From: Bacillus amyloliquefaciens DSM 7 = ATCC 23350
Lineage (GTDB): Bacteria > Bacillota > Bacilli > Bacillales > Bacillaceae
Length of the DNA stretch: 64,000 bases
Direction: 5' to 3'
NCBI RefSeq assembly: GCF_000196735.1
Contig: NC_014551.1
Coordinates: 177,501 to 241,500, forward strand
This document shows positions 21,852 through 43,708 of this stretch, one piece after another. Each line of letters begins with the position of its first letter. Position 1 is the stretch's first letter. The notes under the pieces were generated by a model. It worked only from the letters and a program-made list of their open reading frames with translations. It was not told the origin of the DNA and searched no databases. A program made the position numbers and the translations under genes.

Positions 21852-21855
21852 TTTT

Positions 21856-21927: not shown

Positions 21928-21931
21928 TCTC

Positions 21932-22095: not shown

Positions 22096-22121
22096 TGAAA
22101 CCTTTTAAAACAATCAACGTA
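22096..22121 (+). promoter_or_regulatory. SigW autoregulatory promoter
   Basis: TGAAAC (22096-22101) and CGTA (22118-22121) are 16 bases apart, an exact match to the SigW ECF promoter pattern. It lies 39 bases before sigW, as in B. subtilis where SigW drives its own operon. Confidence 0.92.
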
Positions 22122-22159
22122 TAGATACAGACCGGTGAAGGGCAGAGGTAAGATAAAAC

Positions 22160-22723: not shown

Positions 22724-22736
22724 GTGGGGTGATGAA

Positions 22737-23363: not shown

Positions 23364-23390
23364 AGCGTATAATCGCTTTACTCTTTTTTT
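23358..23390 (+). terminator. Terminator of sigW-rsiW
   Basis: GAGTAAAGCG-tataat-CGCTTTACTC is followed by seven T. The stem begins within the last rsiW codon. Confidence 0.9.
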
Positions 23391-23433
23391 ACGGATTGCC
23401 ACGCTGGCTCATTTCACTTGAGAAATCAAAATG

Positions 23434-23442
23434 TGGTATAAT
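23434..23442 (+). promoter_or_regulatory. Extended -10 promoter of the cdaA operon
   Basis: TGGTATAAT is an extended -10 element about 87 bases before cdaA. No good -35 box is visible at 16-18 bases; TTGAGA lies too close at 13 bases. Confidence 0.5.
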
Positions 23443-23528
23443 GAGCACGCTATATGATGTACATATTGCTCATGCAGCACAATTCATAACGGAAAAACGA
23501 AATGACTGAATTCTTGGAGGACGAGGAA

Positions 23529-24350: not shown

Positions 24351-25773
24351 ATTCTTAAACAACCGCTGGGCTGTAAAGATCATTGCATTGCTCTTTGCGC
24401 TCCTGCTTTATGTGGCGGTTAACAACAACCAGGCGCCGACTCCGAAAAAGCCGGGGGAATCCTTTTTTCCGACATCAACGACTGACGAGGCTACGCTTAC
24501 TGATATTCCTGTAAAAGCGTACTATGATGAAGCGAATTACGTAGTCACCGGCGTGCCCCAGACCGTAAATGTCACGATTAAAGGCTCGACAAGCGCGGTG
24601 AAAAAGGCGAGACAGACGAAGAATTTTGAGATATACGCTGATATGAATAAGCTGAAGACCGGGACTCATAAGGTCGAATTGAAGGCGAAAAATGTATCGG
24701 ACGGACTGACGATATCCATTAACCCGTCAGTCACGACGGTTACGATTCAGGAAAAAACGGCTGAAAGTTTTCCGGTTGAAGTTGAATACTACAATAAAAG
24801 CAAAATGAAAAAGGGATATACGCCCCAGCAGCCGATTATCAGCCCGAAAAACGTACAGATTACGGGTTCGAAAAATGTGATTGACAACATTTCGCTTGTC
24901 AAAGCATCCGTGAACCTTGAAAATGCAAATGAGACCATTGATAGGGAAGTGAAGGTGACCGTCTATGACAAAGACGGCAACGCACTTCCTGTTGATGTTG
25001 AACCGTCAGTCATTAAAGTGACGGTTCCCGTGGCCAGCCCGAGCAAAAAGCTCCCTTTCAAAATTGAAAGGAAGGGAAGTCTTCCTGACGGGGTGAGCAT
25101 TGCGAGCATTGACTCGAATCCGAGTGAGGTGACGGTTTACGGCCCGCAGGATGTGCTGGATTCACTTGAATTTATCGACGGTGTATCTCTTGATTTAGAC
25201 AAAATTGATAAAGATACGGATGTCGATGCCGACATCCCGCTTCCTAAGGGTGTCACAAAGGTGTCACCGGGGAAAATTACCCTTCATGTTAAGGTGGACA
25301 GTGAAGACAAAAAGGATTTTAGCAATGTCCCAATCAAGACGGTCGGACTGGGAGGCTCGCAGCGGATTGAGTTTCTCGACCCTGAATCGCGGGCGATCAA
25401 TATTACGGCCAAAGGCTCTCCGTCCAACATTAAGGCGCTGAAAAAGTCGGACATTGAGCTGTATGCCAATGTCTCGGGCTTAGATGACGGAGAGCATTCT
25501 GTAAAGCTTGAAGTAAACGGGCCGCAAAATGTCACATGGTCCTTGTCAAAAGACACGGTTAAGATCAGGCTGACTTCTAAGAAAAACACAAGTTCAAATA
25601 AAAATGACGGCGGCTCCGCTGATTCCGGCAATAAAGACGGCACAAGCGGAGGCGCAGACAAAGACAAGAACCAGGAAGACACTGACAGCGATCAGAATAA
25701 AAGTCAAAACCAGGATCAAAATCAAGACCAGGATGAAGACGGATCAAGTGCTGATTCATCTTCAACAGAATGA
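24343..25773 (+). CDS. cdaR: CdaA regulator, YbbR-domain protein
   Basis: This 476-residue protein has one N-terminal membrane segment (residues 11-28), repeated YbbR domains outside the membrane, and a low-complexity tail rich in D, N, Q, S and K from about residue 420. ATG 24343 has GGAGGGGC upstream; the longer open frame is an artefact of reading into cdaA. CdaR modulates CdaA in B. subtilis. The acidic/polar tail is probably disordered and may contact the wall. Confidence 0.94.
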
Positions 25774-25790
25774 AAAAGGAGCGATACAAA

Positions 25791-27137
25791 ATGGGCAAGT
25801 ATTTTGGAACAGATGGTGTAAGAGGTGTTGCCAACAGCGAGCTTACGCCAGAGCTGGCCTTTAAAGTGGGGCGTTTTGGCGGTTATGTCCTGACCAAAGA
25901 TAAACAGCGCCCGAAAGTGCTGATCGGCCGCGATACACGTATCTCCGGACATATGCTGGAGGGAGCCCTTGTCGCCGGACTTTTATCGATCGGAGCTGAA
26001 GTGATGCGCCTCGGCGTTATTTCTACGCCGGGGGTATCCTATTTAACAAAAGCGATGGATGCTGAGGCGGGCGTCATGATTTCCGCTTCTCACAATCCCG
26101 TACAGGATAACGGAATTAAATTTTTCGGAGGAGACGGCTTTAAGCTTTCTGACGAGCAGGAGGCCGAGATTGAACGTCTCATGGATGAACCGGAAGACAA
26201 ACTTCCGCGACCGACAGGCGCGGACCTCGGGCTTGTGAACGATTATTTTGAAGGCGTTCAAAAGTATCTGCAATTTTTAAAGCAGACGGCGGATGAGGAT
26301 TTCACGGGCATTCACGTAGCGCTTGACTGCGCCCATGGTGCGACATCTTCCATTGCGACACACCTTTTTGCCGATCTTGATGCTGACGTGTCTACAATGG
26401 GAACGTCTCCGAACGGCTTAAATATTAATGACGGCGTCGGTTCTACACACCCGGAAGCGCTGAGTGCTTTCGTCAAAGAAAAAAATGCCGATATCGGCCT
26501 TGCGTTTGACGGAGACGGCGACCGCCTCATTGCCGTTGATGAAAAAGGAAACATCGTGGACGGCGATCAGATCATGTACATATGCGCGAAGTATTTGAAA
26601 TCAGAAGGCCGTCTGAAGGATGATACAGTCGTATCAACCGTGATGAGCAACCTCGGTTTCTACAAAGCGCTTGAAAAAGAAGAAATCAAAAGCATCCAAA
26701 CGGCAGTCGGTGACCGCTATGTCGTAGAAGCGATGAAAAAAGACGGCTATAATGTCGGCGGCGAGCAGTCAGGGCACCTTATTTTCCTTGATTACAACAC
26801 TACCGGCGACGGGCTCTTATCGGCGATCATGCTTGTGAATACGCTGAAGGCATCGGGGAAAACCCTTTCAGAGCTTGCTGGTGAAATGAAAAAATTCCCG
26901 CAGCTTTTAGTAAACGTGAAAGTGACGGATAAATATAAGGTAGAAGAAAACGCTAAGGTGAAGGCCGTCATTTCTGAAGTGGAAAAAGAAATGAACGGAG
27001 ACGGCCGGATTTTAGTGCGCCCGTCAGGCACCGAGCCGCTTGTCCGTGTAATGGCGGAAGCAAGAACAAAAGAGCTTTGTGACGAATATGTCACAAAAAT
27101 CGTGGATGTCGTGCGGACAGAAATGGGAGCGGAATAG
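25791..27137 (+). CDS. glmM: Phosphoglucosamine mutase
   Basis: This 448-residue alpha-D-phosphohexomutase has the active serine in [12 protein letters not shown] (about residue 100), the metal loop DGDGDR, and a C-terminal phosphate-binding RPSGTEP. It converts GlcN-6-P to GlcN-1-P for UDP-GlcNAc synthesis and is known to bind and restrain CdaA. AAAAAGGAG precedes ATG 25791, which is the start typical of the family ([12 protein letters not shown]). Confidence 0.96.
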
Positions 27138-27221
27138 CGAAGTTTATAAACAGAGAGCGAACAAGACAAGTGCGATCAGCATAAAATGATAGTAACATGA
27201 TGCCGGGACGGAAAAAAATAA

Positions 27222-27250
27222 TTGACCGTCCTTGGCACATGTTGTAAAAT
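27222..27250 (+). promoter_or_regulatory. glmS promoter
   Basis: TTGACC (27222-27227) and TAAAAT (27245-27250) are 17 bases apart and lie about 70 bases before the ribozyme cleavage site. Confidence 0.7.
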
Positions 27251-27318
27251 CAAGCTTGTTCAGCCTTTGTTTTTCATTTATAGGAAAGGCGGCATTGTTT
27301 GCATCTTTCATAATTATA

Positions 27319-27480
27319 GCGCCCGAACTAAGCGCCCGAAAAACGGCTTAGTTGACGAGGATGGAGGTTATCGAATTTTCGGCGGATGCCTCCCGGCTGA
27401 TTCATTTAGATCACAGCCGTAAGGATTTCTTTAAACCGGAGGGGCGACTCTCCGAACAAAGGGAAATCACATGATCTTCC
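27319..27480 (+). ncRNA. glmS ribozyme-riboswitch
   Basis: The sequence starting AGCGCCCGAACTAAGCGCCC, with GACGAGGATGGAGGTTATCG and CGGCGGATGCCTCCCGGCTG downstream, is the conserved glmS ribozyme core. A long 3' domain ends at ATCACATGATCTTCC. It self-cleaves just before G27319 when GlcN-6-P binds, leading to mRNA decay and feedback control of glmS. It fills most of the 430-base gap between glmM and glmS. Confidence 0.97.
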
Positions 27481-27567
27481 AAAAAAACATGTGGGAGGGG
27501 ACGATTGAAAGTCCCCTTGTAATCTGACTTTCTTCGTCTCCTTTTACACCTTTAGGAGGAAGAAAAA

Positions 27568-29370
27568 ATGTGTGGAATTGTTGGTTATATCGGTCATCTT
27601 GATGCGAAAGAGATTTTGTTAAAAGGATTAGAGAAGCTTGAGTACCGCGGTTATGACTCTGCCGGTATCGCTGTGGCGAATGAGCAGGGCGTGCATGTGT
27701 ACAAAGAAAAAGGCCGCATCGCCGACCTTCGTGAAGTGGTGGATCAAACGGTTGAATCTCAAGCGGGAATCGGCCATACACGCTGGGCGACTCACGGCGA
27801 ACCAAGCTTCCTGAACGCTCACCCGCATCAAAGCGCACTTGGCCGCTTTACACTTGTTCATAACGGTGTGATCGAGAACTATGTTCAGCTGAAGCGTGAA
27901 TACCTTGAAAACGTTGAACTGAAAAGCGACACGGACACTGAAGTAGTCGTTCAAATGATTGAGCAATTTGTGGCAGGAGGACTCAGTACAGAAGAAGCGT
28001 TCCGCAAAACACTGACTCTGTTAAAAGGCTCTTACGCAATTGCATTATTTGACGGCGAAAACACAGACACCATTTACGTTGCAAAAAACAAAAGCCCTCT
28101 GTTAATCGGCCTTGGAGATACTTTTAACGTCGTGGCATCTGACGCGATGGCTATGCTTCAAGTAACGAATGAATACGTTGAGCTTTTGGACAAAGAAATG
28201 GTGATCGTGACAAAAGACGAAGCCGTGATTAAAAACCTTGACGGTGAAGTCATGACACGTGCGTCTTATATCGCTGAGCTTGACGCCAGTGATATTGAAA
28301 AAGGCACATACCCTCACTACATGTTAAAAGAAACGGATGAGCAGCCGCTTGTTATGCGCAAAATCATCCAAACGTATCAGGACGAAAACGGCAGACTGGC
28401 TGTGGCTGGCGATGTCGCTGACGCCGTGGCGGAAGCGGACCGCATTTATATCGTGGCTTGCGGAACGAGCTACCATGCCGGTCTTGTCGGGAAACAATAT
28501 ATTGAAATGTGGGCAAACGTCCCGGTTGAAGTGCATGTAGCGAGTGAATTCTCTTACAACATGCCGCTTCTGTCTAAGAAACCGCTCTTTATTTTCCTTT
28601 CTCAAAGCGGAGAAACAGCGGACAGCCGCGCCGTGCTTGTTCAAGTCAAAGCGCTGGGTCACAAAGCGCTGACAATTACAAACGTTCCGGGTTCCACGCT
28701 GTCCCGTGAAGCGGATTACACATTGCTTCTGCACGCAGGCCCTGAGATCGCCGTTGCATCAACAAAAGCGTATACGGCTCAGATTGCCGTGCTTGCGATT
28801 CTTGCGTCCGTTGCAGCCGAACGCAATGGCGTTGATATCGGTTTTGATTTAGTCAAAGAATTGGGTATCGCGGCAAACGCCATGGAAGCCCTTTGCGACC
28901 AGAAGGACGAAATGGAAATGATCGCGCGTGAGTATCTGACTGTTTCAAGAAATGCTTTCTTCATCGGCCGCGGCCTTGACTACTTCGTATGTGTCGAAGG
29001 CGCCCTGAAGCTGAAAGAGATTTCTTACATCCAGGCGGAAGGCTTCGCCGGCGGTGAGCTGAAGCACGGAACAATCGCTCTGATTGAAGAAGGAACACCA
29101 GTCTTTGCGCTGGCGACACAAGAACACGTCAACCTGAGCATCCGCGGAAACGTGAAGGAAGTCGCAGCCCGCGGCGCCAACACTTGCATCATCTCGCTAA
29201 AAGGTTTAGAAGACGCAGACGACAGATTCGTCCTGCCGGAAGTCAACCCTGCGCTTGCTCCGCTGGTATCTGTTGTACCGTTGCAGCTGATTGCTTACTA
29301 CGCTGCACTGCACCGCGGCTGTGACGTTGATAAACCGCGCAACCTTGCGAAGAGTGTGACTGTGGAGTAA
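27568..29370 (+). CDS. glmS: Glutamine-fructose-6-phosphate aminotransferase
   Basis: This 600-residue enzyme has an N-terminal class II glutamine amidotransferase domain (catalytic Cys2 in MCGIVGYIG) and two SIS domains with SQSGETADS and the C-terminal KSVTVE end. It makes GlcN-6-P from fructose-6-P and glutamine, the first step to peptidoglycan precursors. It is controlled by the ribozyme in its leader. Its last ~50 bases form the conserved Tn7 target sequence, and a decayed Tn7-like island follows directly. Confidence 0.97.
29316..29370 (+). other. attTn7-type target sequence at the glmS 3' end
   Basis: The glmS codons for [16 protein letters not shown] are the stretch recognised by TnsD of Tn7, which directs insertion about 25 bases beyond the stop. 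The downstream AT-rich island with a TnsA remnant shows that this site has probably been used. Recognition is established for Tn7; its use here is inference. Confidence 0.6.
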
Positions 29371-29446
29371 TATATTTAACCCCTTTGGTTATTATATTTG
29401 TAGTTTTATAAAAAAGATTGATCATTTATAATAAAGTTTGATTGAA

Positions 29447-29490
29447 AATAACCTCTTCGGTATGATATCCGTAAGAGGTTATTTTTTATT
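29447..29490 (+). terminator. Terminator after glmS
   Basis: AATAACCTCTT and AAGAGGTTATT form an 11-pair stem around a smaller inner stem (CGG/CCG), followed by a T run. It separates glmS from the island genes. Confidence 0.88.
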
Positions 29491-29514
29491 ATTCAGATAA
29501 AAGGCGGAGTGAAA

Positions 29515-30344
29515 ATGTTACCCAAATATAATCCCAATAATCCGAGTCTATTAGAATCGATAGTTTGTTTTACTGATATTTTAGGTTTTCAAGTTTAATT
29601 ATAAACACACCTAACCTACAGTCTGGAAATCACTTACTTAAAGATCTTCATAAAATTCTTACAAAACAATATGCGTTAATGAGAGAGATGAACCCATATG
29701 GTCATTTTAAAACATTTACTGACAATGTCATACTAGCATATCCAAGATTTGAAGATGGTGAAGGGCAATCAGGTAATTTGTTTATGTCATTTATTGATTA
29801 CCAATTAGAGATGACATTAAATGGGTATTTCTTACGTGGCGGTATTGATTTAGGAGATTACTATGGTGATGATGATTTTGCTTATGGACCAGCGTTAATT
29901 GAAGCACATGATTTAGAAAGTAGTAAGGCAATTTATCCTAGAATTATTTTAAGTGATGAAATGATTAAAATGGTATCGCAACACCTGGGCTATTATGGTT
30001 CTGCATCATATGCTCCACAGAATTCACATTTATTAATAGATGAAGATGATAAAGTTTTTGTTAATTATTTGTATGGACTACATGAAATATATAACACGAC
30101 TGAAGATATCATGGAATATATTCAAAAAATTCAAAGTCACAAAGATATTATTTTAACTAAATTGAACCACTTCAAAAGCGATAAAAAACTTTATTCTAAA
30201 TACGAGTGGGTAGCTCAATATCATAATTATTACTGTGATGAGTATTTTGAAAAGAATGCAATTCAACAATTCAATTTGAAAATACCTAGTATACAGACAC
30301 GTAATTTTTCTAGAATAGCTATAAGTGATTTAATACTTATTTAA
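29515..30344 (+). pseudogene. Class III nucleotide cyclase-like gene, one-base frameshift
   Basis: Reading starts at ATG 29515 with SD AGGCGGAG. It runs to FTDILGF, then hits a stop at 29596. One extra T in the run at 29586-29589 would join it to a frame reading SSLIINTPNL and then on to 30344 (about 276 residues in all). The joined protein has the layout of class III cyclase domains: first metal Asp in FTDILGF, second in KTFTDNVILAYP, then RGGIDLGDYYG and ALIEAHDLES. Bacterial defence cyclases of the Pycsar type belong to this superfamily, but no TIR or membrane effector is adjacent. If the missing T is real, translation could restart only at ATG 29679, without the first Asp. Confidence 0.65.
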
Positions 30345-30368
30345 ATTTAGGAAGAAGCTAAAGATAGA

Positions 30369-30748
30369 ATGTCCAAGCGAAAACGTTCGCCCTCTATTGG
30401 TAAGAAATATAAAGAAGGTTTCGGATAAGGTTAGGGGCTAATTATAAGCCGTGGGTGACAATTCAAGATGTACCTTCATTGGGTCACGTTACACGTACTT
30501 CTATTTGTTAGAATATTACGATTTGGTAATTGATATACGTGAACAATATCCACTGCTATCTGTTGAAGAAACAATCGTTATTGCAGATGAGAGTTTGAAG
30601 GAGTTTTCTGGTTTGTTTATTTGAGTGATGGTGTTACTGAAAGGAAGTATGTGATTGCTGAGTTCAAGCTATTTCCAAATAAGAAGTCAGCATGATTGAA
30701 GTAGAACGTGAAGACAGAGCATTTTTCAACTTTAATATGTTTCATTAA
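30369..30748 (+). pseudogene. tnsA: tnsA remnant (Tn7 transposition endonuclease)
   Basis: Pieces in three frames reproduce TnsA in order: MSKRKRSP...KKYKEGFG followed by stops at 30426 and 30432 (in place of Gln and Glu), then YKPWVTIQDVPSLG in another frame, then LEYYDLVIDIREQYPLL and EETIVIADES in a third, then ERKYVIAEFK and finally IEVERED. Several frameshifts, two nonsense changes and an internal deletion make it non-functional. TnsA is the PD-(D/E)XK nuclease that cuts the 5' ends of Tn7-like elements. The region 30345-30853 holds no intact gene. Confidence 0.8.
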
Positions 30749-30853
30749 TAACCAGCAGAATAAAAGCTATTGTTATCCTCAAATTTTAAGTGGATTAATT
30801 GATAGTCATAGAACTAAAGTAATAATCAGAAAAATTTACTAAGAGGTAATGTT

Positions 30854-33800
30854 ATGTATAAAGATATAGCAATTAATTGGGATGTGTTTCAATATAAATT
30901 TACTGAGAAGACTAGAGATGTATTTGAATATTTAGCTTATATACTTTTTTGTCATGAGTTTAAAATCGAAACAGGAATATTTAGATACTTTAATCAGCCA
31001 TATGTGGAAACTTTACCTGTAACAACTGAAGAAGGATGTATTGGATTTCAGGCGAAATATTACGATGCAGGCACTAGTATTGCTGATAAAAAAACAGAAT
31101 TAAAAAATGCTATTAAGGGCGCAAAAACTAAATACCCTGAAATTGATAGATTTATAATTTATACGAATAAAGAATTGAGTGCAAGTAGTAAGAAAGATAC
31201 TGTAAAGCCTGAATATCAAACAGAAATTGAAGAATATGGACTTGAGAGAGATATTCTTGTGGAATGGAGAGTCAAAAGTAATTTCGAGATAATGTTAATG
31301 AGACCCGAATTGGAACTTATTAGAGATTATTTTTTTAATCCAGATTCAGGAATTAAAGGGTACTTAGCTCAAGTTAAACTTCATAGTCAAAGTAAATTAG
31401 AGAATATAAAGTCAACTATAAGATATAGAGACCAAATCATTAAAATAAATAAAAATAATGATTTTGATATCCACTCTTTTTATGAGTCAGAAATTCCATG
31501 TTTAATTATTTATGGTGAGGGGGGATCAGGTAAGTCGGGCTTTGCAAAAGATTTATTAGAAAATGAAAATAGAGCTAATATCGCTTTTAAAGCGACAGAT
31601 TTTGATGTTACTACTTTTGCAGAGTTCTCAAGGAGATTTGGAGAGTATACTTTTGAAGATTATTTAAAGCTTTTCCAAGACGATGAAAATAAGGTTTGTT
31701 TGATTGATTCCACGGAAAAAGTATTAGTGATGAATAACCGAGATATATTTAATGAGTTTGTGAACTTATCGATTAAGTATGGATGGAAAATTATTTTTAC
31801 AGTAAGGACAGTACACAAGGATAATTTTATTAATACTTTTTTAAATGGGGTAAGATATCAAGAATTAAAGATAGAGACTTTGTCAAAACAAGAATTACAA
31901 TATTTATTAAAGGATTCAGATTTTCCTCTTCCGAAAGAAGAATCCTATATTAATCTAATTTGTAATTTGTTTTATCTGAATTTATATATTGAGATAGCTT
32001 GTGAAAGCGATAGCGATATTTTAACAATTGAACAATTTATAGAAAGTATATGGACGTATAAAATTAAAAATACTAATCATTATAGAGAGTTAGATATTCG
32101 TAGAGAAAAGACTATTTGTAATATTGTCCTATCTTGTGCGAATAAGGGTGTATATTACTATGAATATCAACTATATGATGATTCAGAAGCAATTGCGGCA
32201 CTCAGGGAAGATGAAATAATATTCTATGATGAAGTTATGAGAGGATATTCCTTGAGTCATGATATCTACGAAGAAATTGTATTAAAACATATATTTGAAA
32301 ATTTATATATTAAGAAAGAAGACTGTAAAAGCTTTTTTGAAGAGATTGGTGACAGTTTAGTTGTGAGAAAAAATCTTCGTTTATGGCTTAAAGATAAGTT
32401 GGTACAAAAAACTGAAGGTATTAAAGATTTTATTATAGAAGTATTTTATACAAGTAAAATTTCTTCAATTTGGCAAGATGAGATTTTGATAACTTTAATG
32501 AGCATTGAAGATAATCAAATTTCAATAAACTTTATAAAATCCATGTTAACTAGAGATGAATACAAATTATTATTCAGGGCAATATTCTTATTAAATACTA
32601 CGTGTAGAATTATAAATAATGACTTTTGGAATAAAATTTTAACTTCTGAAGAACAAAAATCTGCAAATCTTTATAGATCCACAAAGCCAACTGGAGCAGG
32701 ATGGGGTTATATTTTTAATTTCATCTATGAAAATCTAACAGCAATAGAATGGAAACCTCAAAATATAATGTTAGTTATTGAATGTTTATATAGTTGGACT
32801 TCACATAATGTAAAAGGCATTGAAACCAAACATGCATGTTTAATTGCATTATATTTATACAATAAAGTAAAAGCTGATAAATCATTAATCTATAAGTTAA
32901 ATGATAAAAAAATCGAGAAAATAAATAATGTAATATTATCAAGTGCCTGGGAAATTGACAGTGAGTTATCTATCATTGTAGAAGAGGTAACAACAGATAC
33001 AGATTTTAATCATCTGCATAAATATTATGATTTGTGTGTGCAGGGATTAACTAATGTATACAATTGTGGAAATTTAGTTGACTCGAATCCTAAATTAGTA
33101 TTTGATTTAGCAAATAAATATTGGTTTTTTAAAGACAGTATGTTTTATAGTCCACGTGAAATTGAAGATGCTTTTAAACTAAATGACTCAACTTCTCATG
33201 ATTATTATCCATCAAGTGCCTTTCAAACTCCTATATTTAGACTATTGCAGTCTAGCCCTTGGGAGACAATAGATTTTATTATAGAGTTATTCAATAAGAT
33301 AACCATAGATTACTCCAATTCGGAATTGGTCGAGAAGTATGATGAACTCTTAACAATTAAAATTAATCTATCTAATGGAAAAGAAATAGAGCAAGTAGCG
33401 AGCGAACGTTTATGGCTGATGCACAGAGGTACATATCCAGCTCCTAATTTACTTGAAAGTATCCTGATGGCGTTAGAAAGATGGTTATTACTTGTTTTGG
33501 AAGAAATACCAGGTGTTATAGAAAAGATTTGTATAAAACTATTAAGTTCTCAATCGGCAGCTCTAACATCAGTAGTAGTAAGTTTAGTGGAGGCATACCC
33601 TCAAAAGTTATTTAACATCGCATGCATATTAATTTCTTCCAAAGAGGTTTTTATATTAGATAACATCCGAGCTGTTAAAGAATTTGGTTCAAATTTTTTG
33701 AAGGGTGTAGTTCCGGCTAACAAATTGTATGAAGACGAGAGAATAAGGACCAATAATCAAGCTTTTAGAAAGAAAAGGCTAGAAGATGTAATTCTTGAGT

Positions 33801-35554
33801 ATCAATTAAATTTAGAAAAACTACCTATTGAAGTTTTAGAGAATAGAAATAAAATTTTATATAGTCAACTCGATAAAGTGTTTGAGAAAATAGAGCAATT
33901 TGAGGAAGAATATCAATTCGTATACTATAGAATGGATATCAGAAAATTAAAGCTTGATACTGATAATTTTTTCGAAAAGGATGGACACACATATGCCTCT
34001 TTGGTGACAGAACTACCTGCTTCTCTAGTTGAAATTCATAATAAAACGGAAGAGAAAAACAGAAAAATATTTAATAGAAATGATTTGTATATGTGGTCAA
34101 TTGCACGTTTTGAGCATAAAAGGGATAGTGAAAAGTATATAGACTATGAAAATAATCCTTTAAAAGCCTTAGGGGAAGCTAGAGAAATTTGGGAGAGTGA
34201 AAATAATGAATATTTTTATCTTCAGAAGTATGCTCCGATATATGTTTTCGCTATATTAATAAGGGACTATAAAGAATTAATTTCAGAAGATGACTGTCAC
34301 TACTGTAAAGATAGTATTTTAAATTTTATTGAATTGAACATTGAAAGTGGGAATGTTATTCAAACAGGAAGTGGTTTTGAAGCGGCAATTTATATTTTGC
34401 CACTAATAATTTCTAATGAAGATATGAGTGACATATCTCTAAAGAAATCTATTGAATTACTTTTAATATTAATACTAGATTCTAATAAACTAGTAATTCA
34501 AACTTTTTCAACCAAAATGTGGGAAACAAATTTTAAAATAGCATCAGGTATTTTCTGTGGTTATGTTGAATTAAAACCTCTATATGATTCAGAGGTTAGA
34601 ATATATAATGGAATTTCATCGATTGAATTTATCAATAAAAATCAACATGTAATAAATAATATTATAAAAAATGTCTATGCTATTCCTAATGATTTTTCAC
34701 ATTTAAGTTATAATTCGTTACTTAATTTAAATATGCTTTTGGCACCAACTAATGAGATTACTGTAATGAAATCAATAGAAATCGGAAAAAATATTTGGGA
34801 AATCTTATTTGAAAAACGACATAAAAGAAGAGAAGATGTTGTAGCAAATATAGAAACCGAAATGGAGTATATTAAATGGTTGGCAAAATATTTGATGTGT
34901 ATATCATTAGAGGAACAAAAGAAATTAATAAGAGCTTTTGAACCATTTATAAATAGTTGTGAAAGCTTTGAATGGCTTTTAAGAGATATTATTCTTAAAC
35001 AAGATGAAATGGATAAGTATGATGAGTTTTGGAATATATGGAATAATATTCAACCTATTATAATATCTTTATGTAAAAAAACAGAAGAAAGGGATAGAAC
35101 CGTTTCTTCAAGAGAATATCATGATGATATTCATCAAATAGTTATAACTTATTTATTTGCATTCCACTGGTGGAACGATAAGATAAAATCTTGGCATTCA
35201 TTAAAGAAGGATGACCATTTATTTTTTAGATATATAAGTTATGAATTAGGTTATAAGCCAGGTGTTTTGTATGCGATTGGAAGAGTTTTAAATACTGTTG
35301 GATATAATAATTATCTTTCACAAGGGATTGATTGGTTATATGAAATAATTAACAATAATCCGCATCTTGAACAAAAAAAGTTAGAAGTGAATACGGAATA
35401 TTATATAGAAGAGTATATGCAACGATATATTTTAGAAAATAGATTGAGTTTCAAGAAAAAACCCGCATTACGTAATAAAGTGATAGTTGTTTTGAATTTT
35501 TTGGTCAATAGAGGTTCTACAGTTAGTTATATGCTAAGGGAATCTATTGTGTAG
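30854..35554 (+). CDS. Giant nuclease-STAND NTPase protein, Avs-like defence candidate
   Basis: This is an intact 1566-residue protein starting at ATG 30854 with AGAGGTAATGTT upstream. Residues 20-160 look like a PD-(D/E)XK (Mrr/Cap4-like) nuclease, with E52 and the QxK motif Q66-A-K68 after a hydrophobic strand. Walker A is GEGGSGKS (221-228) and Walker B is VCLIDSTE (281-288). IIFTVR follows as a sensor-like strand, and LSHDIYEEIV (~467-476) resembles the winged-helix region of STAND NTPases. The remaining ~1000 residues are helical and contain no motif I recognise; they could be the sensor. This order matches Avs proteins, which bind phage proteins and then degrade DNA. The composition is strongly AT-rich. 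The family assignment is inference. Confidence 0.75.
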   Translation: MYKDIAINWDVFQYKFTEKTRDVFEYLAYILFCHEFKIETGIFRYFNQPYVETLPVTTEEGCIGFQAKYYDAGTSIADKKTELKNAIKGAKTKYPEIDRFIIYTNKELSASSKKDTVKPEYQTEIEEYGLERDILVEWRVKSNFEIMLMRPELELIRDYFFNPDSGIKGYLAQVKLHSQSKLENIKSTIRYRDQIIKINKNNDFDIHSFYESEIPCLIIYGEGGSGKSGFAKDLLENENRANIAFKATDFDVTTFAEFSRRFGEYTFEDYLKLFQDDENKVCLIDSTEKVLVMNNRDIFNEFVNLSIKYGWKIIFTVRTVHKDNFINTFLNGVRYQELKIETLSKQELQYLLKDSDFPLPKEESYINLICNLFYLNLYIEIACESDSDILTIEQFIESIWTYKIKNTNHYRELDIRREKTICNIVLSCANKGVYYYEYQLYDDSEAIAALREDEIIFYDEVMRGYSLSHDIYEEIVLKHIFENLYIKKEDCKSFFEEIGDSLVVRKNLRLWLKDKLVQKTEGIKDFIIEVFYTSKISSIWQDEILITLMSIEDNQISINFIKSMLTRDEYKLLFRAIFLLNTTCRIINNDFWNKILTSEEQKSANLYRSTKPTGAGWGYIFNFIYENLTAIEWKPQNIMLVIECLYSWTSHNVKGIETKHACLIALYLYNKVKADKSLIYKLNDKKIEKINNVILSSAWEIDSELSIIVEEVTTDTDFNHLHKYYDLCVQGLTNVYNCGNLVDSNPKLVFDLANKYWFFKDSMFYSPREIEDAFKLNDSTSHDYYPSSAFQTPIFRLLQSSPWETIDFIIELFNKITIDYSNSELVEKYDELLTIKINLSNGKEIEQVASERLWLMHRGTYPAPNLLESILMALERWLLLVLEEIPGVIEKICIKLLSSQSAALTSVVVSLVEAYPQKLFNIACILISSKEVFILDNIRAVKEFGSNFLKGVVPANKLYEDERIRTNNQAFRKKRLEDVILEYQLNLEKLPIEVLENRNKILYSQLDKVFEKIEQFEEEYQFVYYRMDIRKLKLDTDNFFEKDGHTYASLVTELPASLVEIHNKTEEKNRKIFNRNDLYMWSIARFEHKRDSEKYIDYENNPLKALGEAREIWESENNEYFYLQKYAPIYVFAILIRDYKELISEDDCHYCKDSILNFIELNIESGNVIQTGSGFEAAIYILPLIISNEDMSDISLKKSIELLLILILDSNKLVIQTFSTKMWETNFKIASGIFCGYVELKPLYDSEVRIYNGISSIEFINKNQHVINNIIKNVYAIPNDFSHLSYNSLLNLNMLLAPTNEITVMKSIEIGKNIWEILFEKRHKRREDVVANIETEMEYIKWLAKYLMCISLEEQKKLIRAFEPFINSCESFEWLLRDIILKQDEMDKYDEFWNIWNNIQPIIISLCKKTEERDRTVSSREYHDDIHQIVITYLFAFHWWNDKIKSWHSLKKDDHLFFRYISYELGYKPGVLYAIGRVLNTVGYNNYLSQGIDWLYEIINNNPHLEQKKLEVNTEYYIEEYMQRYILENRLSFKKKPALRNKVIVVLNFLVNRGSTVSYMLRESIV

Positions 35555-35625
35555 TAAAAATAGTTGAATGCTAACTTAAGATTATTATCTTTAAAAATAA
35601 ATATAAAATAGTAGGAGTGTATTTA

Positions 35626-35658
35626 ATGGTGAAATGTAAAGAATGTCAAGGCGCATGA
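35626..35658 (+). pseudogene. Truncated start of a zinc-ribbon-like gene at the island edge
   Basis: TAGGAGTGTATTTA precedes an ATG that opens MVKCKECQGA and then stops. The C-x2-C start is typical of small proteins with an N-terminal zinc ribbon. The reading breaks at the point where base composition returns to that of the core chromosome, so the gene seems to have been cut by the same junction that truncated the permease. Confidence 0.45.
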
Positions 35659-36121
35659 CAAATATGTCCTGACTTTACCGGTCAGCAGAACAAATATTGT
35701 TCAAAGTCACTATTTCTTTTATCTTTTGGTTGTTGTGATCGGGGCTGTAATATCTTATGGTATTTTCTTTGTATACAGCCTGAGTGCTGAGGAACCTGTT
35801 GACGGCATTTTGAATATTGTCTCTTTCGGAACGTTCATCGTTCTCTTTGCCGGTGCAATCGTTTATCCTCTTCTCTACATTATGGGCCCGGAAAAGTCTG
35901 ATGCGATTGTGATTGGAGGTGCAATGGGAGGGCTTTTTACTACCTTTGGATTGCAAAGTGTCGTTGGTTATGTAACAGAAAAATTACCACTGTCATTTTT
36001 GCACATAAATCCTTCTTTATATGTCCCTATTATATATATCATTATCGGCGTTATATTATATATCATTTCTTTTTTCATTGCCGCAGCTATCTATCGTAAA
36101 AAAGAATTTACAACAGGATAA
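35651..36121 (+). pseudogene. ABC-2 type permease, 5' end lost
   Basis: An open frame reads AHDKYVLTLPVSRTNIVQ and continues through about four membrane segments to 36121. LPVSR followed by a lysine/asparagine-rich turn and FFYLL is typical of ABC-2 permeases that begin some 40-60 residues earlier. The upstream part is replaced by island sequence and there is a stop at 35630. TTG 35726 could start a 131-residue fragment without ribosome site. No ATPase gene is adjacent. The base composition is that of the core genome. Confidence 0.65.
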
Positions 36122-36165
36122 GGCATGGCACGGGCTCATAAATTTACTTAAATTCCAAGCAGAAA

Positions 36166-36194
36166 GCCGCCCGCACAATGGGCGGCTGTTCTTC
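36166..36194. terminator. Terminator between the permease remnant and the secreted protein
   Basis: GCCGCCC-gcacaat-GGGCGGC is followed by TGTTCTTCT on the + strand; it lies between convergent genes. Confidence 0.7.
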
Positions 36195-36197
36195 TAA

Positions 36198-37079
36198 TTA
36201 AAACTGCGTTGTCACATCGTACTCATAATCAATCTTCAATTTTACATTTTTCATAGTTGATTTTGCTGTTGCAAGGGTGTTGTATTTAAAATTCCAGATG
36301 CTTGAGACTGAGAGGTTATCATCCAGTGTAATACCGTAATTTCCTTGTGTGGAGCTGTTTGCGAGTGCGCGGTGCCACACTTTATTTTCTTCCGACATCA
36401 TGTAGTGGCTTGTATTTCCTTGGCTTGGTGTTTGGGTTGCGGTGGTGTTGATTCTTTTCACTGTGGCGTCTCTTGGAATGCTTGTCTGTTTGGTTAAGTC
36501 GAGTCTAAGAACAGTTGAATCTGATCCATTCGGACTGAGGTTTGTATTTCCTTTATTTTCAGCTGTGCCGCTGAATGAGAAAGTCTCACTGCCGGATTTG
36601 ATTCGGTCGTAAATGGAGAGTGTAAAGTACATATCGTCAGTGTAGGAGCCGCGGGACACTTTCACGTAGAACGTCTCGTTATTTTCTTTCGCATCTGTAT
36701 TCGCATAGATAAAAGGCAGTGCCGTATCAGGATTTATCACTTCTGTGCCTTTACTGATCAGTACTTTATTTTTATTATAAATTTCAATGTCCATTCCCTT
36801 GTATTCACTTCTTGTTGAACTCCTGACATAAAGTCTTTCTCCCTTATTTGCCGTGAAAGTGAAATACGAATCTTTTTCCCCTTTTGGCAATATGGCAGTA
36901 TCAATATTTTTATATTTCCAGTAGCCTGCTGGATTGGCAGTTTCAAATGAATGATTTCCTGTAATGGCGCTTATTTGTAACGAGTTCTTTTGAGACGCAG
37001 AGGCTGAAGGTGAAGATGCAAACAATGCGCCTGATAAAACGATGACACTGACAAATAGAATCAATATACACTTCTTCAT
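36198..37079 (-). CDS. Secreted protein of unknown function
   Basis: About 293 residues from ATG 37079, which has AAAGGGGGA upstream. There is a clear Sec signal peptide (MKKCILILFVSVIVLSGALF, cleavage near SASA-SQ). The mature part is polar, beta-rich and contains a stretch resembling pre-peptidase or carbohydrate-binding beta-sandwich domains (SYFTFTANKGERLYVRS, FYVKVSRGSYTDDMYFTLSI). I do not recognise the family. The gene stands alone, with a terminator 4 bases beyond its stop, just outside the island and with core-like composition. Confidence 0.75.
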   Translation of the reverse strand: MKKCILILFVSVIVLSGALFASSPSASASQKNSLQISAITGNHSFETANPAGYWKYKNIDTAILPKGEKDSYFTFTANKGERLYVRSSTRSEYKGMDIEIYNKNKVLISKGTEVINPDTALPFIYANTDAKENNETFYVKVSRGSYTDDMYFTLSIYDRIKSGSETFSFSGTAENKGNTNLSPNGSDSTVLRLDLTKQTSIPRDATVKRINTTATQTPSQGNTSHYMMSEENKVWHRALANSSTQGNYGITLDDNLSVSSIWNFKYNTLATAKSTMKNVKLKIDYEYDVTTQF

Positions 37080-37213
37080 GGAAAAATCCCCCTTTTTGAC
37101 TACATCATACATAAAAACATTAGCTATGTAAACATTTGTTATTTAAGGTTAAAATATACTGGAAGACAGCCGATAAAAACACTAGAACATCATCTCAAGC
37201 GGAGGTTAAAAAC

Positions 37214-38380
37214 ATGCGCCTAAACGCTCGATATATAAAAAATCAAGTAATGGCTCAGCAAGTGCTTCAGCGGTATTCTTCCAAAACAAATGTGAAAGAT
37301 GCGGCAAAAGGAACGGACAGCTTATTGATTCAGGCAGGCGGGAGCCGCGATCTGAGCCAGGTGAATTATTCAACGAGCGGTGTCACTGAGAAAGGGAGCA
37401 GCCTGTCCCGTTTATATCAATCCGCAAATCAGAAAACGATGACGGATAATGGGAATGAGACGGTGATTCAAGCCAATAATCCGTATGAGTCTGAGAGTGA
37501 TATTGCGAGTAAGATTCTTAATGAGAAGTACAGCCGTATCAACGAAATCAATAAACGAAAGCCTGATCCTTTAGGTTATATTAAGGACAAATATCAGCGT
37601 GCCAATTCTCCTTATTTCAGGAGTGATTTATCGGAATCAGAGCGTCAGGCCGCTTATCATAATGAAACGGAATGGCTGTTTAAGGGGAAAGCCCAAAGCT
37701 ATGATTTTCGTGATGCGGCGTTTCGGGGTGAAACGCTCAGCGGAGAGATTGAGGGAGAAAATGAAAAGGTGTTTCAGCGCGGGCAGGTCAATCAGCAGAT
37801 TGAGATGCTTTTCCATCGGAATCATATTCAGATTCCGGAGGGCGCGAACCTTACATTTACGATATCACCGATTGATTATCTGTTAAAAGTGAGCGGAACG
37901 GACGATGAAGAGCTCACTAAGCAGATTGAAGCCGTCTTAAACTCTGGGGAAAACAGCAAAGAGCTGTTTGCGCACATCATTCGGAGCCGGAGTGATGATT
38001 CCTCGCAGTTTACGGCAGAAGCGTATGAGAAATATCAAGTTGTTCGGGAAATGTATGAGGTGACCGGCTATCATCTGAAAGACTTGCAGATCGTGAACGG
38101 AAAGTACGTCACAGAAGACGGCCGCGACCTTTTAGACGTCTATAAAGAAGCGCTGCAGCAAGATCCTTTGCTGAAACATACGGCCGCAGAAGCAGCCGCC
38201 CATTACGGACAGGGGCTCACGAAGCTGGCGAGAACGGGGTATGATGCCATTCCTGATTTGGTGCTGTCAATTGATTATAGAGACGGGTCTCTGCGTGACG
38301 TCGGCCAACGCAAGCAATACGGATCAGGGGGTACGGACTGGCTTTCTGAATGGAAACGGCAGCTGGGCGTGCGTATATAA
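37214..38380 (+). CDS. ybdO: YbdO-like cytoplasmic protein of unknown function
   Basis: About 388 residues from ATG 37214, chosen because GGAGG lies 10 bases upstream. No signal peptide or membrane segment is visible. The protein is rich in charged and Gln residues with coiled-coil-like stretches, for example around QSANQKTMTDNGNE and EINKRKPDPL. Length and position before ybxG/csgA suggest B. subtilis YbdO (DUF4885-type), but I identify it by synteny, not by a motif. The function is unknown. Confidence 0.6.
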   Translation: MRLNARYIKNQVMAQQVLQRYSSKTNVKDAAKGTDSLLIQAGGSRDLSQVNYSTSGVTEKGSSLSRLYQSANQKTMTDNGNETVIQANNPYESESDIASKILNEKYSRINEINKRKPDPLGYIKDKYQRANSPYFRSDLSESERQAAYHNETEWLFKGKAQSYDFRDAAFRGETLSGEIEGENEKVFQRGQVNQQIEMLFHRNHIQIPEGANLTFTISPIDYLLKVSGTDDEELTKQIEAVLNSGENSKELFAHIIRSRSDDSSQFTAEAYEKYQVVREMYEVTGYHLKDLQIVNGKYVTEDGRDLLDVYKEALQQDPLLKHTAAEAAAHYGQGLTKLARTGYDAIPDLVLSIDYRDGSLRDVGQRKQYGSGGTDWLSEWKRQLGVRI

Positions 38381-38385
38381 AATTA

Positions 38386-38420
38386 AAAAGCTGACGAATG
38401 GATTTCGTCAGCTTTTCTTT
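38386..38420. terminator. Bidirectional terminator after ybdO-like gene
   Basis: AAAAGCTGACGAA-tgga-TTTCGTCAGCTTTT has A and T flanks and serves both this gene and the convergent aldo/keto reductase. Confidence 0.88.
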
Positions 38421-38430
38421 ATTCGTCTTC

Positions 38431-39276
38431 TTAAAATTCCTCATACTCCGCCGGGTCTTGGCCATTTATGCGTCCGTCCGGGCGGGTAAGCGAATCGATG
38501 ATCTTCATGTCGTTTTCATCAAGGGAGAAATCAAAAACGGAGATGTTTTCAAGCTGGCGTTCGGGCGATGCTGATTTTGGAATCGGGATGGCGCCCAGCT
38601 GGATATGCCAGCGTAAAATGACTTGAGAAATGGTTTTGCCGTATTTGTCCGCAATCTGTCCGAGTTTTTGATCGTTCAATACTTCTCCGGCGCGGGATAA
38701 CGGGCTCCATGATTCTGTCACGATGCCCTGTTCCTCATGCCATTGACGCTGCTGCTGCTGATTAAAAGCGGGATGTAATTCAATTTGGTTAATGCCTGGC
38801 TTTACGCCGGTTTCACGTTCGAGCCGTTCAATGTGTTCAGGCAGGAAATTGCAGACGCCGATGGAACGGATCAGGCCCCATTTTTTCGCATCAATCAGTG
38901 CCTGCCATGCTTCCGTGTAGCGGTCTTGTTTCGGATTCGGCCAGTGGACAAGATACAGGTCATAGTAATCCAGACCGGCGCGATATAAAGATTCTTGGAT
39001 TGTCTGTACCGCTTTGTCATATTCATGGTAGCGCCCCGGAAGTTTGGACGTCACGTATAACTGTTCTCTCGGAACTGAGCTTCTGCGGATGGCTTCACCG
39101 ACCATCCCTTCATTTTCATAGTTATAAGCAGTGTCAATCAGGCGGTAGCCGATATCAATGGCGCTGTTGACGGCATGAACGCCGTTGTTCCCGTTAAGAG
39201 CGTATGTACCGAAGCCGATCGCGGGAATGCTTGTCCCATCCAGCAGTTTCTTTTGCGGAATTGCTGCAGTCATCAT
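38431..39276 (-). CDS. Aldo/keto reductase
   Basis: This 281-residue TIM-barrel oxidoreductase has the family tetrad: Asp and Tyr in LIDTAYNY, Lys in VTSKLPG, His in LYLVHWPNP. IPIPKSASPERQ is the NADPH-binding loop. It resembles the B. subtilis YtbE/YvgN group that reduces small aldehydes such as glyoxals. The gene is monocistronic with a good ribosome site. The natural substrate cannot be told from sequence. Confidence 0.9.
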   Translation of the reverse strand: MMTAAIPQKKLLDGTSIPAIGFGTYALNGNNGVHAVNSAIDIGYRLIDTAYNYENEGMVGEAIRRSSVPREQLYVTSKLPGRYHEYDKAVQTIQESLYRAGLDYYDLYLVHWPNPKQDRYTEAWQALIDAKKWGLIRSIGVCNFLPEHIERLERETGVKPGINQIELHPAFNQQQQRQWHEEQGIVTESWSPLSRAGEVLNDQKLGQIADKYGKTISQVILRWHIQLGAIPIPKSASPERQLENISVFDFSLDENDMKIIDSLTRPDGRINGQDPAEYEEF

Positions 39277-39360
39277 TAAATCCCTCCTTGGTTTCTACTT
39301 TACCATTAATCTTACAAATGAAACATAATAATGGAAGAAAGTGAGATGACCTGCACATGA

Positions 39361-39390
39361 AAAAAGCTGACGGAAAACCGCCAGCTTTAT
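39361..39390 (-). terminator. Terminator of the lrgAB-like operon
   Basis: AAAGCTGACGG-aaaa-CCGCCAGCTTT is a stem whose A run on the + strand gives a T tail on the - strand. It overlaps the LrgB stop codon. Confidence 0.75.
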
Positions 39391-40079
39391 ATTTGAAACA
39401 TCCATGCAACGACGGGGCCGAAGACCGACCCTAATACGGCGCAGAGCGTCATGGAAACAGAACTCATGGAGACTGTTAATTCTCCGTATTCCATCGCTTT
39501 TGAGGTGCCGAGCGCATGGGAAGCGCTCCCGAATGCGATTCCTTTTCCGAGTGAACTGCGGATGCGGATCCACTTGAGAAGCAGCGGGCCTAAGATGACG
39601 CCGGAAAACCCTGCGATCATGACGAACACGACTGTCATGGAAGGGACCCCGCCGATTCCTGATGCGATTTGAATGGCGACCGGAGTTGTGATTGATTTTG
39701 GAATGATTGACAAAATCAAACTCCGGCTGATGCCGAACAGTTCTGCAAATAACAGGCCGCTGACCATTCCGGAGAATAAACCGGCCAGCACGCCGCCGAT
39801 AATCGGAAACATATACTTGATTAACATACGGCGCTGCTTATAAAGCGGGTATGCCAAAGCCACCACGGCCGGGCCGAGCAGTGAATTGATCCATTGTCCG
39901 CCGATCATATACTCTTTATACGAAATATGAAAAACAAGCAGCACAGCGATTATGAAAATCGTAGTCGTCAGAACGGGTATGAGAAAGGGATAAGGAAAGC
40001 GCACATATAATTTCACCATGGCCAGATAGGCGGCGGCCGTAAACAAAATTATAAGGATTGCGATACATGTTTGCTGCAC
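39387..40079 (-). CDS. yxaC: LrgB family membrane protein
   Basis: This 230-residue protein with about seven membrane segments is of the LrgB/CidB family; SIIPKSITTPVAIQIA is the family signature and SHALGTSKAMEYGE follows. The GTG start at 40079 has AAAGGAG 8 bases upstream, inside the end of the LrgA-like gene, so the pair is coupled. B. subtilis YxaC has the same length. Members are proposed holin-like or pyruvate/organic-acid facilitators; which applies here is unknown. Confidence 0.85.
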   Translation of the reverse strand: MQQTCIAILIILFTAAAYLAMVKLYVRFPYPFLIPVLTTTIFIIAVLLVFHISYKEYMIGGQWINSLLGPAVVALAYPLYKQRRMLIKYMFPIIGGVLAGLFSGMVSGLLFAELFGISRSLILSIIPKSITTPVAIQIASGIGGVPSMTVVFVMIAGFSGVILGPLLLKWIRIRSSLGKGIAFGSASHALGTSKAMEYGELTVSMSSVSMTLCAVLGSVFGPVVAWMFQI

Positions 40080-40453
40080 TTCTTTTTCTCCTTTCTCTGA
40101 TTGGCTTTATGCTCTAACAGCTGGCTGGCGTACCCTGCGGCGATCATTGTGACGAGAGTGCTCAGCACAACGATCAAAAACAGGGCCACTCCGCTTGCGG
40201 AAAACAGTGACGGATAATTGATGACCCCCGTCATGGCCGGAATGAATAACAACGGAAGAAAAGACAGCAAAAATCCCGCTCCGTCTTCAATCATTTTGAC
40301 GGGAATGATCTTAACCGATAAACATATGATGAGCAGGATCAAACCGATAATGCTGCCGGGAATGGGCAGATGACAGAGCTGCTGAATGGCTCCCCCGATA
40401 AAGGAAAATGCGAATAAAATAATGATTTGCAATATGATGCGTATGACTTTCAC
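40049..40453 (-). CDS. LrgA family membrane protein
   Basis: A core of about 134 residues with four membrane segments is of the LrgA/CidA family (PGSIIGLILLIICLS, PLLFIPAMTGVI). The GTG at 40453 is the likely start by family length but lacks a ribosome site at normal distance: AAGGGGGAAG lies about 30 bases further up, and the frame is open back to TTG 40546. It pairs with the LrgB gene (31-base overlap) and is divergent from the MarR-type regulator. Confidence 0.75.
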   Translation of the reverse strand: MKVIRIILQIIILFAFSFIGGAIQQLCHLPIPGSIIGLILLIICLSVKIIPVKMIEDGAGFLLSFLPLLFIPAMTGVINYPSLFSASGVALFLIVVLSTLVTMIAAGYASQLLEHKANQRKEKKKCSKHVSQSL

Positions 40454-40526
40454 GACGATGCTGTTCTTTGGAGAAGAGCAGCTTCCCCCTTTCTTGTTGC
40501 TTCGGTAAGTTTCTTTACTTTTGGTG

Positions 40527-40553
40527 CATATATTTGTACTATACAAATATATG
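40527..40553. promoter_or_regulatory. Palindromic operator 1 in the lrgA-marR intergenic region
   Basis: CATATATTTGTA-cta-TACAAATATATG is a 27-base perfect inverted repeat. Its core TTGTACTATACAA recurs 64 bases further on. Size and position suit a dimeric MarR-type repressor. Confidence 0.75.
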
Positions 40554-40597
40554 TATGCAAAAAATTTCTATATGTTTTCTGAGTAATGTGCATATGT

Positions 40598-40610
40598 TTG
40601 TATTATACAA
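40598..40610. promoter_or_regulatory. Palindromic operator 2 upstream of the marR gene
   Basis: TTGTATTATACAA repeats the core of operator 1 with one centre base changed. It lies 39 bases before the regulator start, so autorepression is likely. Confidence 0.65.
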
Positions 40611-40648
40611 CTAATATTGCTGATGTCAATTGTAAGGAGTGAAGCCGT

Positions 40649-41080
40649 TTGTCAAAACAAGATCCGATTGAATTAATTGAATATGAGCTCACCACTTTTA
40701 TTAGGAGGGCTGTTTATCTTGATAACTCCGACCGCAAAATCGGAAATCTGGAAAGGGCCTCGTATTTGTTATTACGGCAGCTGGATGAATTCGGACCGGC
40801 GCGTGTGAAGGAATTGGCCGAATCCTTTAAGCTTGATATTTCTACATTGTCGCGCCAGGCCGCGGCCTTGGAGGCGAAGGAGCTGATCCAGCGTTTATCC
40901 GATCCTTCTGACGGGCGGGTCAGTCTTTTTACGATTACGAAGCTTGGCAGGCAGAGGTTAAAAGCTGATAAAAAGATGCGACTTGATCGATATGAACGCA
41001 TGCTTGATGATTGGTCCGGCGATGAAAAAGAAATGTTCGGCAGGCTTTTGCTGCGGCTGAATGAGGCATTTATCGATTAG
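40649..41080 (+). CDS. yxaD: MarR family regulator
   Basis: This 143-residue protein has the MarR winged helix: LAESFKLDISTLSRQAAALEAKELI as helix-turn-helix and DPSDGRVSLFTIT as the wing. TTG is the start, with AAGGAG 9 bases upstream. Length and divergent pairing with an LrgB gene match B. subtilis YxaD/YxaC. It most probably binds the two TTGTA-n3-TACAA palindromes and represses both itself and the membrane pair. The ligand is unknown. Confidence 0.88.
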   Translation: MSKQDPIELIEYELTTFIRRAVYLDNSDRKIGNLERASYLLLRQLDEFGPARVKELAESFKLDISTLSRQAAALEAKELIQRLSDPSDGRVSLFTITKLGRQRLKADKKMRLDRYERMLDDWSGDEKEMFGRLLLRLNEAFID

Positions 41081-41504
41081 TGAATGATTTTTCCCGGTTA
41101 AGCAGGATTATGGCGTATATGAAGGAGAATGGAAGAGGGAAGGCTTTACGCCATTCTGCTTTAGCAAAAATTTTATAGAATGGGGGGCGGAAAACATTTA
41201 TCCCGGGAAATAGTGTTTCTCGGAGATTGCAGCTTTTATTATCTTAATATTCATAATTTATTAAAATGAAAACGCTTTAATTTGAGTATTCTGGTTTAGG
41301 GTGTAAGGTGTTTACCTGAAAAAAACAATTGTATTTTCCACGAAAATTTATTATGATGAGATAAGGAAATTAGAGATTATATAACAATAGGAAGATAGAA
41401 TATTTCTAATATTGCGGGAAATGAAGATTGAGTTAGGTTCAAACAGGTGCACCTTCTGCTTCATTATTTCACATATATCTGAGCTGTTAAGAGGAGGAAG
41501 CGAA
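41081..41504 (+). other. 424-base leader region of ybxG
   Basis: No gene is seen here. It holds a possible terminator of yxaD (AGAATGG...CCATTCT at about 41127-41158), a cre-like site at 41267-41280 and an AT-rich stretch before the ybxG ribosome site. I looked for a T-box or other riboswitch signature and found none. Confidence 0.5.
41267..41280. promoter_or_regulatory. cre-like CcpA site upstream of ybxG
   Basis: TGAAAACGCTTTAA matches the cre consensus TGWAANCGNTNWCA at 13 of 14 positions. It suggests catabolite control of the amino-acid permease. Confidence 0.5.
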
Positions 41505-42890: not shown

Positions 42891-42893
42891 CTC

Positions 42894-42926
42894 AAAAAGA
42901 CACCTCTCTTAAAGGGGTGTCTTTTT
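42894..42926 (+). terminator. Terminator after ybxG
   Basis: AAAAAGACACCTC-tctta-AAGGGGTGTCTTTTT is followed by C/G and lies 4 bases after the stop. Confidence 0.9.
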
Positions 42927-42981
42927 CGGCTTGTCCGCGAGTGGTATACTGGATAAAAAAGCAGAACCGGGGGAAACATCG

Positions 42982-43695: not shown

Positions 43696-43708
43696 GGAGA
43701 GGATTAGG

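Follow-up and report, generated by a model that had tools for sequence, protein, structure and literature searches.

We analysed a 64,000-nucleotide window of the Bacillus amyloliquefaciens DSM 7 genome (contig NC_014551.1, positions 177,501 to 241,500) and a single large gene within it, which lies behind glmS at window positions 30854-35554 on the forward strand. This gene very probably encodes a divergent Avs4, a one-gene antiphage sensor that was brought in as cargo of a Tn7-like transposon behind glmS and was then left stranded yet intact. A preliminary description, made from the letters of the window alone, had proposed a possible new Avs-like protein: that it is Avs-like holds, but it is not new, being a divergent Avs4 by its PADLOC match and by its match to the solved structure 8dgf.

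The protein matches Avs4 along its whole length

The open reading frame (ORF) begins with ATG and runs for 1566 codons with zero internal stops, so it is one intact protein of 1566 residues, as first described. Residues 5-1566 align with positions 2-1570 of the 1570 in the PADLOC Avs4 model (PDLC02169; 1163 bits, E=0). The NCBIfam Avs4 model (NF041815) matches residues 8-1566 with 1355.9 bits (1367.4 bits for a copy of the gene in Metabacillus, discussed below). Because this score is below the equivalog cut-off of 1500, we file the protein, on its sequence, as a divergent Avs4 homologue that falls outside the NCBI equivalog. Among solved structures, the sole good match is 8dgf_A, the Avs4 chain of an entry entitled "Avs4 bound to phage PhiV-1 portal" (E 7.7e-184 over residues 7-1565).

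The gene and its parts, all on the forward strand, are as follows.

30854..35554: intact avs4 homologue, 1566 residues (PADLOC Avs4, NCBIfam Avs4 and 8dgf_A matches)
30854..31333: residues 1-160, PD-(D/E)XK-like nuclease effector part with E52, Q66 and K68 (PADLOC Avs4, 1.8e-52; 8dgf_A, 1.7e-25)
31454..32293: residues 201-480, STAND nucleoside triphosphatase (NTPase) with Walker A at 221-228 and Walker B at 281-288 (PADLOC Avs4, 1.5e-53)
32354..35551: residues 501-1566, helical C-terminal sensor part of the Avs4 type (PADLOC Avs4, 3.8e-220; 8dgf_A, 7.1e-117)

The E values for the parts come from separate searches, in which all three parts were compared with PADLOC and the first and third with PDB. 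Each part had Avs4 as its one strong PADLOC match, which bears out the described order of a nuclease-like part, a STAND part and a helical C-terminus of about 1000 residues. For the first part, the PDB match covers residues 7-120; for the STAND part, the next best model was mad8 at 0.0035; and the third part (1066 residues) matches the Avs4 model end to end. At E<=1, Avs4 was the only Avs model in PADLOC to match, although the library's Avs content was not enumerated. The matches in PADLOC, NCBIfam and PDB are all to Avs4, so we rejected an origin in a housekeeping family.

The protein seems to lack domains at first because Pfam gives nothing over its cut-off for the whole sequence (AAA_16 matches the STAND part weakly, at 0.0054, under the cut-off). 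This is the one point in favor of an Avs-like class of its own, with the novel kind of sensor first suggested for the C-terminal part. With all three parts matching Avs4 and nothing else near, we consider such a class very improbable, and as a claim about the family it is refuted by the matches of the C-terminal part alone. The structure prediction proposed for that part led to the same place: a template-free model of residues 468-1566, of modest quality (four-row alignment, mean predicted local distance difference test score (pLDDT) 66, predicted template modelling score (pTM) 0.45), found both 8dgf chains as its top PDB matches (E 2.6e-35, TMq 0.65), and the runner-up was an importin at 5.4e-05. 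A predicted structure of residues 1-500 was poorer (four-row alignment, mean pLDDT 49; Foldseek match to 8dgf with TMq 0.31), and we used neither this model nor its match as evidence for a nuclease fold. The nuclease fold is proposed from sequence, and the PD-(D/E)XK label is based on the motif.

We aligned nine nuclease-bearing Avs4s: the window protein, the Metabacillus copy, five copies from the window's phylum, and two copies from E. coli plasmids. The residues named in the preliminary description are all present, and both the putative active-site residues (E52, Q66 and K68) and the Walker residues (G221, G223, G224, G226 and K227 in Walker A; D285, S286 and E288 in Walker B) are invariant in 9 of 9. 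The stretch SLSHDIYEEIV, which had been described as winged-helix-like, is the counterpart of the (T/S)HDIYEE motif of Avs4. Thus, the window protein is like the E. coli Avs4 (AVAST type 4) of 8dgf in its full-length colinear homology, its three parts, and its putative catalytic and Walker residues. It differs from the seven canonical Avs4s (the alignment without the window protein and the Metabacillus copy) in its identity to them of just 30-31%, in scoring under the NCBIfam cut-off, and in four indels of 5-13 residues within the sensor at 1019-1418. Avs1-3 and Avs5 share with it the STAND NTPase, the N-terminal effector and the C-terminal sensor, in part according to passages of PMC12931631.

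The gene was stranded by the decay of a Tn7-like element

Metabacillus niabensis, another member of the Bacillaceae, has a DNA copy of the gene that is 97% identical and lies directly behind tnsE, within a tnsABCDE element behind glmS. The gene order there is glmS, tnsA, tnsB, tnsC, tnsD, tnsE, avs4, and the features, on two sequenced loci (L067 and L001), are listed here.

L067 6824-8671, reverse strand: glmS
L067 8815-9663: TnsA (PF08722, 1.2e-21; PF08721, 4e-18)
L001: ORF in the place of tnsB, Mu-transposase-C (1.3e-09)
L001: ORF in the place of tnsC, TniB/AAA (TniB, 5.4e-13)
L001: TnsD (PF15978, 1.3e-77)
L001: TnsE (TnsE_C, 2.1e-12)
L001 10001-14707: avs4, which starts 11 bases past tnsE

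In the window, glmS ends at 29370 and the avs4 island follows directly. Its GC content is 0.285 (29400-35655), compared with 0.475 and 0.454 for the flanks (20000-29370 and 36121-50000). Besides avs4, the following features lie on it or at its edge.

29404..29451, no strand: end-like short repeats, possible TnsB sites, which resemble repeats near the far end of the Metabacillus element
30369..30591, forward strand: tnsA remnant, three pieces of residues 4-97 (tblastn with Metabacillus TnsA, E 5e-16)
30591..30815, forward strand: tnsE 3' remnant with in-frame stops (DNA 92% identical to L001 9647-9881; tblastn with TnsE 400-474, E 1.8e-28)
35617..35673, forward strand: start of the next Metabacillus cargo gene (a 560-residue ORF of no family), then cut off (tblastn with residues 1-19, E 0.002)
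35655..36121, forward strand: truncated ATP-binding cassette (ABC) permease gene, which in the window lacks roughly its first 68 codons and its partner ATPase gene

The island is of Tn7-like origin because scraps of tnsA and tnsE remain in order and a whole counterpart occupies the same site in Metabacillus, with an avs4 of 96% protein identity. An AT-rich island at a Tn7 site had been described, and this is what we found. Unlike the Metabacillus element, the window lacks tnsB, tnsC, tnsD, and most of tnsA and tnsE, and its right side is cut into the ABC permease gene. When the window was compared with the DNA of the Metabacillus element, tnsB, tnsC and tnsD appeared only as short chance-level matches, and the DNA match ends at 35672. 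From these alignments, the tns operon was evidently lost for the most part in a deletion that joined tnsA to tnsE, and what is left is, by its gene content, a Tn7-like remnant without the complete tnsABC for movement. The repeats at 29404-29451 match the far end of the Metabacillus element, on the reverse strand, at 19 of 19 bases and at 85% over 27; this is weak, with E values of 0.003 and 0.034 in AT-rich sequence.

As far as tested, avs4 is the only intact gene on the island, in agreement with the preliminary description: the tns scraps are damaged, the ABC permease gene is truncated, and an ORF of 221 codons at 29679-30344 seems to be the rest of a gene that starts at 29515 and is stopped after 27 codons. 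This ORF had no Pfam, PADLOC or NCBIfam match at E<=1. In the broken gene (29515-30344), the stretches "FTDILGF" and "RGGIDLG" resemble those of a class III nucleotide-cyclase domain; no family matched. Relatives of this gene are found on 12 plasmid records, where they are listed as "hypothetical protein" or are unannotated, and a short fragment of it is also present in another genome (G020), about 200 bases after glmS. Two large ORFs of the Metabacillus element (L001:4839-6608 and 14770-16452) matched nothing in Pfam or PADLOC at E<=0.01.

Proposed function and trigger

Avs proteins are reportedly the subject of a study by Gao et al. Neither "Avs" nor "AVAST" occurs in the main text of PMC8649781. 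According to the discussion of PMC12724215, Avs4 recognises portal, and Avs1-3 recognise the large terminase. Passages of PMC12931631 state that, once terminase and portal proteins or Ksap1 have been recognised, the nucleases of Avs1-4 cleave the genomes of phage and host. Given an intact, transposon-derived Avs4 gene whose putative active-site and NTPase residues are conserved, we draw on this literature for portal recognition, assembly, DNA cutting and abortive infection. By analogy, the gene most likely provides single-protein abortive immunity, and the trigger is probably phage portal proteins. In an uninfected cell, the protein would be inactive. During infection, as phage capsid proteins are made, the C-terminal helical part would bind a conserved fold, which is most likely the portal's; ATP would then be bound by the STAND NTPase and the protein would assemble; and the N-terminal nuclease domains would be brought together so that DNA is cut. 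Phage growth would be halted and the cell sacrificed, by death or arrest. As to its arrival, the gene came as cargo of the Tn7-like transposon behind glmS, and the later loss of the stretch from tnsA to the end of tnsE, and of the far side, left it stranded and intact.

In a region of one viral-collection contig (L084:138-10716), genes for a large terminase subunit and a portal protein (by Pfam) are followed shortly by another Avs4, which thus lies beside the reported kind of target. By its gene order, this contig resembles a P2-like prophage.

Is it a working portal sensor?

Several observations weigh against a working sensor of portal proteins, some because they concern the sameness of the ligand and others because they concern expression. 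Besides the shortfall from the NCBIfam cut-off, the window protein shares 96% identity with the Metabacillus copy but only 30-31% with the seven canonical Avs4s, which are 39-75% identical among themselves (39-57% for the two E. coli copies versus the other five). This comparison had 13 rows. Of 307 positions that are invariant in the seven, 110 (36%) are altered in the window protein, and at 105 of these 110 it has the Metabacillus residue; when each canonical Avs4 was compared with the other six as a leave-one-out control, 2-18% were altered. We also counted six portal genes in the host genome that are over the cut-off and free of stops (four of PF04860 and two of PF05133). Therefore, if any portal is sensed, the prophages are silent or these portals go unrecognised, or else the gene is off.

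The altered share of invariant positions is 26% in residues 1-160, 41% in 161-480, 33% in 481-800, 21% in 801-1000, 47% in 1001-1200, 50% in 1201-1400, and 32% in 1401-1566. Within the sensor at 1001-1400, 30 of 62 positions are altered, versus 80 of 245 elsewhere (Fisher p 0.026, for a region that was chosen post hoc). We set aside the idea that divergence is confined to the sensor, as it is uneven over all regions (21-50%) and the excess at 1001-1400 was found post hoc.

In a tree of 12 rows (L084 and another Avs4 from a viral-collection contig, L085, were added; Halisc, G681 and G583 were left out), the window protein, the Metabacillus copy and L085 form a clade set apart with support of 100/100, although the tree program flags a meeting of long branches at this point. 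L085 has 32% identity to the window protein and 27-29% to the canonical Avs4s. A split frame (G039), a fragment (G068), and partial or broken plasmid matches are absent from all trees.

The low identity, the altered invariant positions, the separate clade and the six portal genes of the host would all fit a divergent Avs4 clade that kept the nuclease and STAND mechanism while its sensor moved to a different phage protein or to a narrow subset of portals. We regard this as possible but unlikely, as the sensor can be aligned over its whole length with an Avs4 chain that was solved with a portal, divergence is found in every part including the STAND part (32 of 78 altered), and the clade carries the long-branch warning. 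More speculatively, and rather doubtfully, the three proteins of this clade might be a second Avs4 subtype with a sensor ligand other than the classical portal, i.e., one nuclease-STAND chassis with a swapped trigger.

As to expression, the frame might be a dead or silent relic, unexpressed since the tns operon ahead of avs4 was deleted. The Metabacillus avs4, with its start 11 bases after tnsE, may be read together with the tns genes; 81 bases of the Metabacillus stretch are missing just upstream of the gene in the window; and promoter-like sites upstream are at chance level (10 found versus 10.5 expected, with one at 30799-30826 just before the gene). But the start region, including a Shine-Dalgarno-like AAGAGG, has been preserved, and a stop-free frame of 4.7 kb stands beside scraps that contain stops and indels (over 236 columns, we counted 7 mismatches and 3 gap openings in the tnsE scrap). 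Furthermore, an alignment of the window gene with its Metabacillus counterpart over 1566 codons shows 55 synonymous and 62 non-synonymous changes, for a ratio of non-synonymous to synonymous rates (dN/dS) of 0.26 (0.18-0.38 in 300 bootstraps). A relic is therefore improbable in our view. The retained selection that had been suggested is seen in this ratio to the extent that a pairwise value can reveal it, since the Metabacillus branch alone may have been under selection. We continue to prefer a stranded but intact antiphage sensor, with portal as its probable trigger.

Distribution of the gene

Counting the window's own genome, the protein (P0001) was found in 3 of 44 genomes of the genus, and NF041815 matched 22 of 80 genomes of the family. 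We dropped 17 of these 22 as weak (E 1e-4 to 1e-3). The five strong matches are G000, G033, G039 (in two pieces), G061 (the Metabacillus copy) and G068 (a 3' fragment). At E<=1e-30, there were matches in 2 of 397 genomes of the order and 6 of 398 of the phylum, again including its own; these genomes are samples of larger groups. For two of the six phylum matches (G681 and G583), the alignment begins no earlier than profile position 157 or 162 and so lacks the nuclease part. These Avs4-like genes (L082 and L083; 1727 and 1722 codons) apparently combine the same STAND-sensor body with a different N-terminal effector.

Thirty-nine plasmid records matched, four of which were fetched. No phage-borne copy was found among 50,697 phage records (tblastn with P0001, E<=1e-5). 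A single-protein search of viral contigs found none, and a search of them with profile A1 found two loci, both of them other Avs4s. Near other Avs4 genes, PADLOC matches at E<=1e-10 included Cas3/Cas8c, Lamassu LmuA/LmuB, type IIG restriction, PDC-S28 and PDC-S13. This survey took in 29 proteins, pooled over four loci and with non-defence genes included, and, having no control set, it supports no claim of enrichment.

In two congeneric genomes, avs4 copies (L062:7490-12190 and L063:7157-11855) lie beside an rlmH-like gene and not glmS. The rlmH-like gene of L062 is a SPOUT methyltransferase by Pfam, and the L063 copy of avs4 is split into two frames.

The glmS site in related genomes

We compared five glmS regions of 18-19 kb each from the same genus (G040, G025, G031, G033 and G036). 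In the first three, the match to the window begins at 35655 and the pair of ABC ATPase and permease genes is whole (the Pfam assignment was made on the G040 pair); the G033 and G036 regions had no match to 35655-36121. Between glmS and the ABC pair, G040 has a SIR2 protein of 987 codons and G025 has an Mrr-type nuclease gene, both with a PADLOC match, and G031 has no ORF of at least 80 codons. Thus, the content of the site differs in each of the three genomes and is defence-like cargo in two. For the SIR2 protein (L059:1894-4857), the ThsA and Dsr2 models match just the first ~240 residues, and the C-terminus has no match. Second, partial matches to the 3' end of glmS occur at distances of a few kb up to about 11 kb from the gene (L066:11865-12247, and in G033, G035, G006 and G038), a pattern that would fit islands having taken along or duplicated the end of glmS.

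Implications

One pair of genomes illustrates how a transposon-borne immune gene becomes a fixed chromosomal gene, with the whole element in Metabacillus and the stranded gene in the window. As a distant Avs4 lineage (with L085, one of the two most divergent of the nuclease-bearing Avs4s compared), the window protein may help to find the sensor surfaces that are needed for portal recognition.

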